Positions 1 through 29,420 of a DNA stretch of 64,000 nt are shown piece by piece. The position numbers and the translations under genes were made by a program. Source of the DNA: Acanthochlamys bracteata (Eukaryota > Streptophyta > Magnoliopsida > Pandanales > Velloziaceae); the NCBI GenBank assembly GCA_019914995.1, contig CM034132.1, positions 2,792,501 to 2,856,500 of the forward strand, written 5' to 3'. The notes beneath the pieces are model-generated. The model saw nothing but the letters and a program-made list of their open reading frames with translations, did not search any database and was not told where the DNA came from. Every line of letters starts with the position of its first letter. Positions within the stretch are counted from its first letter, which is position 1.

Positions 1-1059
1 GTCAAGTTTGCAGGAATTACTACAATTTATTAAAGCAAATATCAAAGATAGTGATGATAGAGGAACTTCAGCAACTCATCTACTGGACAAAGATGAACTC
101 TGAGAAACCTGTTTTGAGAAAGCAGCAGTGGTTTAGATGGGCGGCTTGTCAAGCTTCGTCAATTTCTCTCTGCAGGCCCTATATAGACAAAATGAATAGA
201 AAACCCACACTCTCATTTAAGGTATGACACAAAGTGTATAGAAAATCTGCACTATGTAATAGTGATTTTAAGTTAATGGCATCTTAGTGTATCAAAAGCC
301 TTACTGAGTGCGTAACGTGTTTTCCATATTAGTAAGATTCTTGTCTTGAATCTAGCAATTCTCTTGTACAAAATTAAATTTTGTGTACTCTATACTCCAT
401 AGTTTACCTTTCCATAACGTGCTTGTAATCGAAATATGTTTCTTATGAAACAAGGGCTTTCATCAATGCGAGGAGAGCGCTATGTCTTGATAGAAAACAA
501 AAAAGGAAAAAAATGAATGAATAAGTTTGTATAGAAATTTGGACAATGAAGATCACATTTGATGAGATTTAGGAGGACGTTTGTGAGTGCCTATAAAAAT
601 TTCTTTTTCTAAATGAAATAATTTTTTAATAATTTCTTGAAAATAAATTTAAATTTTCTTTTCTGACATAAAAAATAATAAAATAATATATAAAAAAATT
701 GTATGATATATAATTTTTTTATTATTTTATTTTAAAAATTTTGTAAAGTACTATTAAAAATTTATAAAAATAGTGAAGTGTTTATTTGGAACGATAAAAC
801 ACTTAGAAAGCTTTGCAAAATCCCCTCTTGTACAAGAATGGTGCAAAAAAATTGTTAGGTTACTATCAAAATAAACAATTGAGTTAGAAAATTGAAAATT
901 TACAAATTGATATACAACAAAAGTTGGCTTCACTGAGACTCATTATGGAAGAGTTTTTGGAATCTTCAATCAGCCTTGTCACCTTAATGCCCCGAGCCTC
1001 TAACTATCATGAGTGGTCTACAAGCTGAAAATTACAGCTGACCTTCGGTGTTACAATCC

Positions 1060-3498
1060 TCATCTTCTTTGAGGTTTCAGTTCAGGGCAACTTTGAGACG
1101 GTATGGTGCTTCCTATTCGAGAGGGTGGCCAGTACCGAAAAACAGATCTTCCCAATATATTCTTGAATGGGAGCGGACCCCTGGAAGAAATCAACTCAGT
1201 CCAGCAGAACTAAAGAAAAAACATTTGAATGAATAAAAAGAATAGGCTGCTCGAAGAATTCTTACCATACGTGTGAGTCATAGCTGTTATTCCGATTGTC
1301 ACCCATTACAAATACAGAATCCTTAGGAACTTCCTGCAGGTTTTCAAGAAACAAGATCAGTAATGGAGTAACTAAATTTCTGGATAGCTTCATCCATGAC
1401 TTCCTAATGGTTTTAATTTTTTTATGGCATTCTGGAGCAACATTAGCCAAGTTAAATCTTGTTTCTTGAAAGATTTGAACGACTATAAAATCGAAGTAAG
1501 CATGAAATCTGCCATGTCATGGTGGTGACGACTTTAACCAATAGAAAAATATGTCATGTGGGTTGCATCAAGGCATGAGATACAGTTCTTACTGAAGTAC
1601 ACCTTTCTTGCCTAACAACAGTAGTATCGAGTTGGCATAGGTTTCAACGACCAAAATATAACCATCAAGCTGTGTCTAAGAGAACTCTTACAACAGGGTT
1701 CATGTCATAAGCTGGCAGCTCGAGAATAAATTCTTCATTTCTTGCATTGCTGTTGACTATTAGCTTTCCGTTGTGAACCTGCAATTCAGTGATAGAAAAA
1801 AGATCAAAGAGATTGTTTGTGAGGCAAAGTTATTTCAAAATTATCAGAAGGCAAACAAACTATATAACAGTATATTTAGCAGTTCTATCAATAAGCAACT
1901 GAGACATACTTGACAGTATCCCTTCCAGCAACAATTCGTTTGATAAAAACGTCATCTTCTCCATATCCAGATTTCTGCAAAAAAGAAAAAAAATTAGATT
2001 GAGCTCCTAGTCTAAACAAAGAACCATCCAAGTCATGCCTAAAAGAAATCACTTTACCTGCAATACAGGTGGACTTTTGAAGATAACTATATCGTTAACG
2101 CATGGTTTCCTGAAGTAATATGAAACCTGATGTAATAAGAGGCAAATATTAGCTTGTCCAAAGTTTGGTTACAAAGTGATGCATGGCAAACCTGCGGTAT
2201 ACTGAAACAGCATTGATGCTACTCAGGAACTTTATTTTCAAAGTCAGAAATACCCCAATATATAACTTCCATTTCAAGCATCAGATGAACCTACACATAG
2301 ATATTGGAAGCTCAAGTAACTTTGAGCTTTTAAATTCTAGCATTTACAATCTCTTCAATCTCATATAAATCATATTTGTCCTCCAGATAGCGCATACAGG
2401 ATTACATCTTTTTCAAACATCACGAACATCATTTTCCCCAATTTTTCTTGCATCAAAAAGGGACTCGTGCATCCAATCCTCACGCACACAAAACTACATT
2501 CAATTCAAAACAATTTAAATCTTAAGCAGAATGGCTGCAACAACACTCAATCTACACAAGCAAAAACCTATTACACCAGTATCTCAAAACTCAAGTAATG
2601 CCTAACTATTCTGAAAGAACAACATCCTAAAGCTACTACCAACATTGTTATTGCTCTGGAAGCTCATGTGCAGTTAAATAATGCTCTTACTTTCAAAATC
2701 TAAACTTCTCATCAAGCTAATAGCTGCCTATATTTCTTACTTTGACTTTATATTAAGCTCTAATAAAGCTCATTTCCAAAATCTAAAACCAACAAACGCC
2801 ACTAATTACCGATTTCATTACGCTGCTGTTTCCAAAATCAATACTTTATCCTACAATTCGAAGTTTCCCTCCAAAAACTACAATCTACTTTAAACAAAGT
2901 CCTCTAATAAGAAAAGGAGAAAAAGAAACACTTTTCATCAATTTCCAAACCAGAAAAAGAAAACACAGACACGAACAGAACTCTCAAAACTCACCTTCTC
3001 TGCAACAATGCGGTCTCCAACATTGAAAGTTGGGTACATAGAAAGAGAGGGAATAAATCTCGGCTCAGCAACAAACGTTCTAAAAGCGAACGCTACAACA
3101 AGCGCAGTGAACACAGTCTTCGCATCCTCCGCCGCCAACCTTGCCCACTCCGGCAACAACCCAACCTTGTTCTCATTCTCCTTCTTCTTCTTCTCATCTT
3201 CTCCATCTCCACCGCCGCCGCCGCCGCCGCGGCTGATACTAACAACCGGTGGAGAATTGAGGTCACGGCTAAGGCATTGGAGGGGATTTCTTTGACGAGT
3301 TAAAGGGTGAAAGAACTGGTGGAATCCAAGAAAGGTTGGATTTTTATTGGAACATATCGTACGGGAAGCATTGAAGATTGGATCTTTAGAGCACGAGCGG
3401 ACTGGTATTATTGCCGGATTGCGGCGGAGCGATGCGGTTGAGTTTTTTGTCGTTAATGCCGAGGGAATTGATGGAATGAAGAGTTGCAGAGACGACAT
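1060..3498 (-). pseudogene. PLSP1: PLSP1 copy A, plastid type I signal peptidase, frameshifted
   Basis: Six exons on the minus strand match the intact copy at 25,920-28,361: 3498-2995, 2126-2058, 1974-1910, 1778-1692, 1333-1266 and 1180-1060. The protein would be a chloroplast signal peptidase (S26 family) that removes thylakoid-transfer or envelope signals using a Ser/Lys dyad. Exon 1 is identical to the other copy, including the SMYPT serine box. Exon 3 is 65 instead of 69 bases because four bases are missing at about 1911-1930. The conserved IVAKEGD stretch just after the catalytic lysine becomes IVAGRD, and the later exons go out of frame, including the [14 protein letters not shown] box. 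All splice sites look intact. This is either a recent pseudogene or a local consensus error. Confidence 0.75.
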
Positions 3499-28361: not shown

Positions 28362-29420
28362 GGATTGTAACACCGAAGGTCAGCTGTAATTTTCAGCTTG
28401 TAGACCACTCATGATAGTTAGAGGCTCGGGGCATTAAGGTGACAAGGCTGATTGAAGATTCCAAAAACTCTTCCATAATGAGTCTCAGTGAAGCCAACTT
28501 TTGTTGTATATCAATTTGTAAATTTTCAATTTTCTAACTCAATTGTTTATTTTGATAGTAACCTAACAATTTTTTGCACCATTCTTGTACAAGAGGGGAT
28601 TTTGCAAAGCTTTCTAAGTGTTTTATCGTTCCAAATAAACACTTCACTATTTTTATAAATTTTTAATAGTACTTTACAAAATTTTTAAAATAAAATAATA
28701 AAAAAATTATATATCATACAATTTTTTTATATATTATTTTATTATTTTTTATGTCAGAAAAGAAAATTTAAATTTATTTTCAAGAAATTATTAAAAAATT
28801 ATTTCATTTAGAAAAAGAAATTTTTATAGGCACTCACAAACGTCCTCCTAAATCTCATCAAATGTGATCTTCATTGTCCAAATTTCTATACAAACTTATT
28901 CATTCATTTTTTTCCTTTTTTGTTTTCTATCAAGACATAGCGCTCTCCTCGCATTGATGAAAGCCCTTGTTTCATAAGAAACATATTTCGATTACAAGCA
29001 CGTTATGGAAAGGTAAACTATGGAGTATAGAGTACACAAAATTTAATTTTGTACAAGAGAATTGCTAGATTCAAGACAAGAATCTTACTAATATGGAAAA
29101 CACGTTACGCACTCAGTAAGGCTTTTGATACACTAAGATGCCATTAACTTAAAATCACTATTACATAGTGCAGATTTTCTATACACTTTGTGTCATACCT
29201 TAAATGAGAGTGTGGGTTTTCTATTCATTTTGTCTATATAGGGCCTGCAGAGAGAAATTGACGAAGCTTGACAAGCCGCCCATCTAAACCACTGCTGCTT
29301 TCTCAAAACAGGTTTCTCAGAGTTCATCTTTGTCCAGTAGATGAGTTGCTGAAGTTCCTCTATCATCACTATCTTTGATATTTGCTTTAATAAATTGTAG
29401 TAATTCCTGCAAACTTGACT

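Follow-up and report, generated by a model that had tools for sequence, protein, structure and literature searches.

The locus considered here raises the question whether two genes that appear twice, in mirror orientation, in the assembled genome of Acanthochlamys bracteata form a genuine inverted duplication, by which route such a structure might have arisen, and whether it could silence the genes that it carries. Loss of one of the two, PLSP1, is reported to be seedling-lethal in Arabidopsis (PMC3210150). A second PLSP1 copy residing in a conversion-prone inverted repeat would offer a natural test of how dosage, silencing and conversion play out for an essential gene, and our literature search retrieved no paper containing both 'PLSP1' and 'inverted duplication'. 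The stretch analysed, referred to as the window, comprises 64,000 nucleotides of contig C7. All coordinates are window positions unless a contig is named; negative values continue the window numbering leftward, and position 0 is C7:2792500.

Extent and gene content of the inverted repeat

A BLAST comparison of the window with itself, with the low-complexity filter on, yielded a single inverted repeat (1-6802 versus 29419-22629, 99.47% identity), the sole self-match of at least 80 bp at an E value of 1e-10. When 30 kb of C7 sequence were added on the left, pairwise alignment extended the arms to 7,256 bp (left, -453..6802) and 7,245 bp (right), separated by a spacer of 15,826 bp (6803..22628). 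The earlier note had described a nearly identical 6.8-kb inverted duplication around a 15.8-kb spacer. The inverted arrangement, the spacer and the near-identity of the core are borne out; the arms, at about 7.25 kb, are longer than was thought, and their innermost 75 bp are about 9% diverged. Its worry that the left arm meets the window edge is removed, as the 9.9-Mb contig continues for 2.79 Mb to the left of the window, well past the end of the arm. No N bases are present in the window or in the surrounding 104 kb of C7.

Genome searches with positions 1-3000 and 3001-6802 returned the two arms alone at near-identity (among the 40 of 452 and 40 of 874 candidates that were scored). Searches with the flanks and the spacer returned dispersed-repeat matches, a block on contig C12 and a few partial duplicates, and no second full copy. 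The locus therefore pairs two oppositely oriented copies, while its flanks and its spacer are unique; this is a known kind of rearrangement, and we consider it very probable that it is a true structure in at least one haplotype. Its main features are the following:

1..6802, minus strand, its outer end at C7:2792047 lying 453 bp outside the window on the left: left arm, the derived copy (self BLAST, pairwise alignment; the C12 block is without PLSP1 here)
22629..29873, plus strand: right arm, in the ancestral place (C12 PLSP1 in the same position and orientation; homology runs into the right flank at 30022)
1060..3498, minus strand: left PLSP1, broken, six exons from start to stop (tblastn alignment of six homologues, exon model, translation)
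4368..6511, minus strand: left SKS, intact, 651 amino acids, three exons (Pfam Cu-oxidase domains, exon model)
22912..25052, plus strand: right SKS, broken (alignment, paralogue comparison, exon model)
25920..28361, plus strand: right PLSP1, intact, 305 amino acids, six exons (tblastn homologue alignment, exon model)

The gene names proposed earlier agree with our domain searches: PLSP1 carries a Pfam Peptidase_S26 domain and has homologues named chloroplast processing peptidase, and SKS, a SKU5-similar multicopper oxidase, carries Pfam Cu-oxidase domains. The best full-length homologue of PLSP1 exon 1 stands at 49% (among 120 of 203 matches listed), and SKS homologues reach at most 57% identity (among 120 of 1,027 matches listed). 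Both genes lie on the minus strand in the left arm and on the plus strand in the right arm; consistent with the transcription direction given in the earlier note, both pairs point outward and the copies stand head-to-head. The 0.87 kb between SKS and PLSP1 are present whole in both arms, while the left SKS has only 291 bp of arm sequence upstream of its start codon.

The claim that each arm carries the same two complete genes does not hold for the sequence as assembled, in which the right arm has the one intact PLSP1 and the left arm the one intact SKS. Exon 3 of the left PLSP1 (1910-1974) has lost 4 nt at three places (1912-1927), breaking the reading frame just past the FIKR motif, after FIKRIVA. 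The right SKS shows three 1-nt losses, at 23084, 23545 and 24980, both against the left copy and against a paralogue on contig C5, and its first stop falls at codon 70.

Paralogous blocks and the neighbourhood of the arms

The polarity of the duplication can be read from C12, which holds a paralogous block (68-83% identity by piece) in which the left flank, the spacer, one PLSP1 and the right flank are collinear:

C12:2665837-2666593, with pieces up to C12:2671978: left flank (BLAST)
C12:2672156-2690463: spacer (BLAST), in the same orientation as in C7
C12:2693538-2696895, right-arm orientation: PLSP1 (BLAST)
C12:2698039-2701820: right flank, homology continuing from window position 30022

No PLSP1 match was found at the left-arm site of this block. 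As C12 holds its single PLSP1 in the place and orientation of the right arm, collinear with the flanks, the sequence comparison shows that the right arm is ancestral and the left arm the added copy. No SKS match was found beside the C12 PLSP1, and the polarity therefore rests on PLSP1 and the flanks. By BLAST, homology to C12 restarts at 6852, 50 bp into the spacer; with the joined flanks forced into a global alignment, the restart seems, by eye, to lie at about 6803, right at the inner end of the arm. The best SKS paralogue, on C5, is 88% identical across 4240-6637, and in the 1.5 kb flanking it to either side nothing else of the arm was matched.

Two genes that point towards each other flank the left arm, one for a 2-hydroxyacid dehydrogenase and the other CCDC25-like. 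The neighbouring genes are:

Left of the left arm, plus strand: D-2-hydroxyacid dehydrogenase gene
Spacer, minus strand: presumed CCDC25-like gene, a name that we assume (NFACT-R_1 Pfam match below the curated cut-off)
Spacer, plus strand: PPR remnants (Pfam matches below cut-off)
Spacer, plus strand: DUF502 gene (Pfam)
Spacer, plus strand: LEA_2-like gene (weak Pfam match, E 0.03)
Right flank, about 33.1-33.5 kb, minus strand: protein disulfide isomerase-like sequence (judged by eye)

Several further elements were observed in this neighbourhood. The PPR-like stretch at 10452-11361 is broken across several reading frames in otherwise unique DNA and is possibly a pseudogene. About 0.63 kb (12374-13004) are 90-91% identical to sequences on C19 and C13 and overlap a stretch kept in C12 at 70%, perhaps a DUF502 exon with two younger duplicates. 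Positions 17935-18693 form part of a high-copy element (about 77-80% identity to 38 listed genome places) adjoining a stretch of 23% GC. On the right, a PPR gene on the minus strand (37832-39907) is split: its two long open frames are out of phase and separated by 81 bp, which may reflect an intron, a pseudogene or, in unique DNA, a consensus error. On the left, about 3.9 kb (-9999..-6121) are 86-95% identical to C7:609645-613999, a further duplicated segment on the same chromosome that contains a potassium-channel-like reading frame, judged by eye. A dispersed element of about 480 bp (about -1530..-1047) has over 30 listed copies, at about 80%; judged by eye, its ends are hAT-like and a short target duplication is likely. 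It is separate from the arm, ending about 0.6 kb away. C12-like sequence seems, by eye, to follow this element, a stretch where the alignment did not place C12-like sequence.

Divergence between the arms and the origin of the repeat

The two arms differ in two dissimilar ways. Across the core (-453..6727; 7.18 kb or, exactly, 7,181 bp) we counted four substitutions and 14 indel events. In ten of these indels a short run is one base shorter in the right arm, and in the remaining four the left arm is the one with fewer bases. Seen from one strand, each of the four substitutions is a C-to-T difference in the right arm, and two fall at CG; three can be polarised, and all three have changed in the right arm. 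An indel share of 14 among 18 core differences has a probability of 2e-7 if indels are assumed to make up 20% of mutations and of 1.4e-4 if they make up 33%. Because this share is improbable for ordinary mutation, most of the core indels look like errors of an unpolished consensus at sites where short reads lack unique placement. At the gene breaks, C5 matches the left arm at all three SKS indels, and C12 matches the right arm at all three indels in PLSP1 exon 3. The indel excess, resembling that of an unpolished consensus, means that the gene breaks may not be biological, and we regard error as a more likely cause of the reciprocal breaks than biology. For annotation this carries a warning, as the assembly may show one broken copy of each gene though both are intact in the plant.

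A different picture emerges at the inner edge, which comprises:

6728..6802, unstranded: diverged inner edge on the left, differing from its right-arm counterpart by 6 substitutions and 2 indels (alignment) and lying 217-291 bp upstream of the start codon of SKS
22629..22695, unstranded: inner edge of the right arm, diverged, an imperfect hairpin (alignment and folding)

Six of the 66 aligned bases are substituted here, against the four in the entire core (Fisher p 9e-11), and the differences are not of the homopolymer type. The outer edge of the repeat is abrupt and not diverged in the alignment. An identical core with older divergence at its edge is the pattern of a gene-converted repeat, and it is shared by conversion and homology-primed duplication. 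One diverged and one abrupt edge are the outcome of arm-to-arm copying when strand invasion begins in older homology, and the pattern is compatible both with a full older copy that was overwritten and with a mere pre-existing patch. In the four C12 pieces compared, the 75-bp edge gave no match above the shuffled background, apart from one piece in which the right edge scored 38 and the best shuffle 37, and no match was found elsewhere in the genome. Since the edge could be traced in neither, older homology at the left site is deduced from the edge itself.

Alternatively, the edge could be the result of one clustered mutation event instead of older homology. When the left edge was edited at random 3,000 times, only 17 of the resulting versions equalled the right edge in folding, which is suggestive of a hairpin-templated, quasi-palindromic correction. 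We do not adopt this proposal: four of the eight single edge changes worsen the fold, the right edge is unremarkable among dinucleotide shuffles, of which 11 in 200 fold equally well (z -1.78, and -1.16 for the left edge), and over longer stretches both arms fold alike (z -2.95 and -3.04).

Our preferred reading, which we hold to be probable, is a real inverted duplication followed or accompanied by one recent copying event between the arms. A segment of about 7.2 kb with SKS and PLSP1 would have been copied from its ancestral place, the right arm, to a site 16 kb away, where it entered in inverted orientation between the 2-hydroxyacid dehydrogenase and CCDC25-like genes; the arms would be nearly identical because one was recently copied from the other. 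On one option the duplication would itself be young, with a short stretch of diverged homology having primed it by one-sided strand invasion and with an abrupt join at the far end; on the other, an older inverted duplicate may have been re-homogenised by ectopic gene conversion. Under both options the 75-bp inner edge would represent older homology left unconverted, and the indels that break the left PLSP1 and the right SKS would mostly be consensus errors. Expected effects would include a higher dosage of PLSP1, whose intergenic region is whole in both arms, and of SKS, as well as inversion of the spacer by recombination and ongoing conversion.

The foremost competing explanation blames the assembly. 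The block might be present only on the left (transposed) in one haplotype and only on the right in the other, with the contig switching phase inside the spacer, or one arm might have been filled in from the wrong place. A phase switch of this kind, joining the transposed to the ancestral haplotype, would yield an identical contig; the indel-rich, substitution-poor differences fit an assembly problem as well as they fit two true copies, the apparent errors occur in both arms, and each gene is intact in one arm only. The consensus-error reading of the indels, indeed, suits a true and a false duplicate alike. Against this stand the uninterrupted sequence around the locus, the synteny with C12 that backs the right arm, the character of the inner-edge differences, and the need for two separate false joins flanking the same segment. 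Transposition without duplication is, moreover, rarer than transposition with duplication, which counts against a phase switch. We therefore judge an assembly origin to be doubtful.

A second, quite unlikely route leads through a staggered-break inversion, in which inversion of the spacer would have duplicated the 7.2-kb block and later recombination between the arms would have flipped the spacer back. Staggered breaks are the explanation given for inverted duplications at inversion ends in Drosophila, for which inversion of the spacer between inverted repeats is also described (PMC7584159). The joins observed at our locus (left flank to the PLSP1 side, left end of the spacer to the SKS side) are those worked out from this model after the flip; with the spacer oriented as in C12, however, the second step becomes a necessity.

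True reciprocal loss, in which both breaks would be real mutations and the plant would retain PLSP1 in the right arm alone and SKS in the left arm alone, appears very improbable. It takes the broken left PLSP1 and right SKS, each with an intact partner copy, at face value, and the outgroup paralogues side with the intact copy at all six coding indels. Yet six coding indels next to a single coding substitution are far from normal mutation, and three of the six crowd within 16 bp. A fold-back read chimera was dismissed on logical grounds, given a unique spacer and outer flanks that are unlike each other. Capture by a transposon (Pack-MULE, Helitron) is not favoured: neither element ends nor a terminal repeat were seen by eye at the arm edges, and the two 15-nt flanks of the left arm share no word longer than 4 nt.

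The genome contains another inverted pair of the same gene family. On contig C16, two SKS-like copies of 2.55 kb (C16:1758623-1761171 and C16:1799200-1801752), placed in the SKS family by a 70% match to SKS exons, lie on opposite strands about 38 kb apart and point outward. They are 98.7% identical over 2,555 alignment columns, with 26 mismatches and 3 gap openings. Twenty-five of these mismatches fall into columns 1-352, where they amount to 7.2% of 345 aligned bases; the remaining columns contain one mismatch and one gap. The C16 pair thus repeats the pattern of a near-identical core with one diverged edge. Its ratio of mismatches to gaps (26/3) differs from that of the C7 core (4/14; Fisher 4e-6), a comparison that offers no clean control for the C7 core because most of the C16 differences sit in its old edge. 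SKS-family loci might accordingly have formed outward inverted pairs at least twice, on C7 and C16, with cores kept near-identical by repeated arm-to-arm copying while one edge drifted by 7-9%, the C7 pair carrying PLSP1 along and each arm being left with one working gene; we offer this sequence of events tentatively and consider it improbable in its entirety.

Comparison with known inverted duplications

Inverted repeats homogenised by gene conversion are known from the palindromes of sex chromosomes. These share with the C7 repeat an identical core and a diverged edge; the C7 repeat differs in that one of its edges is diverged and the other abrupt. The AttA2 locus of Drosophila subobscura, as presented in PMC7584159, is likewise an inverted gene duplicate, for which its authors invoke template switching. 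It belongs to a different lineage, and its spacer is inverted, whereas no flip of the spacer is seen at the C7 locus (PMC7584159).

The earlier note had drawn an analogy to the Arabidopsis PAI genes and soybean CHS, where inverted gene duplications trigger RNA-directed methylation or siRNA in trans; applied to C7, the arms would yield double-stranded RNA and methylation of both gene pairs. The PAI half of this analogy proved weak. PAI1-PAI4 is, like our locus, an inverted duplication of an endogenous gene, but in the account given in PMC3203196 the copies stand tail-to-tail and an upstream promoter transcribes through PAI1 into PAI4, producing fold-back RNA; silencing of this type requires a transcript that spans both arms (PMC3203196). 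The copies on C7 stand head-to-head and face outward around a 15.8-kb spacer bearing genes of its own. Judged by orientation, read-through from the CCDC25-like gene would enter the left arm in sense and that from the LEA_2-like gene the right arm in sense, and only the gene to the left of the left arm could be read through across both, over more than 20 kb. The four C-to-T substitutions would be in keeping with methylated DNA, at a sample size of four with one unpolarised. With genes facing outward and other genes between them, our analysis does not favour PAI/CHS-type silencing, which we rate as highly unlikely at this locus.

The soybean I locus, which is closer in shape, leaves it a small probability. 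That locus comprises the clusters CHS1-3-4 and CHS4-3-1 in two identical arms of 10.91 kb around a spacer of 5.71 kb (PMC6710647), comparable to the C7 repeat in arm length and identity. As portrayed there, identical multi-gene arms of about 10 kb, a gene-bearing spacer, and recombination with copy-number change make up the likeness between the two loci. The soybean I locus has a known siRNA output (PMC6710647); the C7 locus differs from it in its outward-facing genes and its 15.8-kb spacer.
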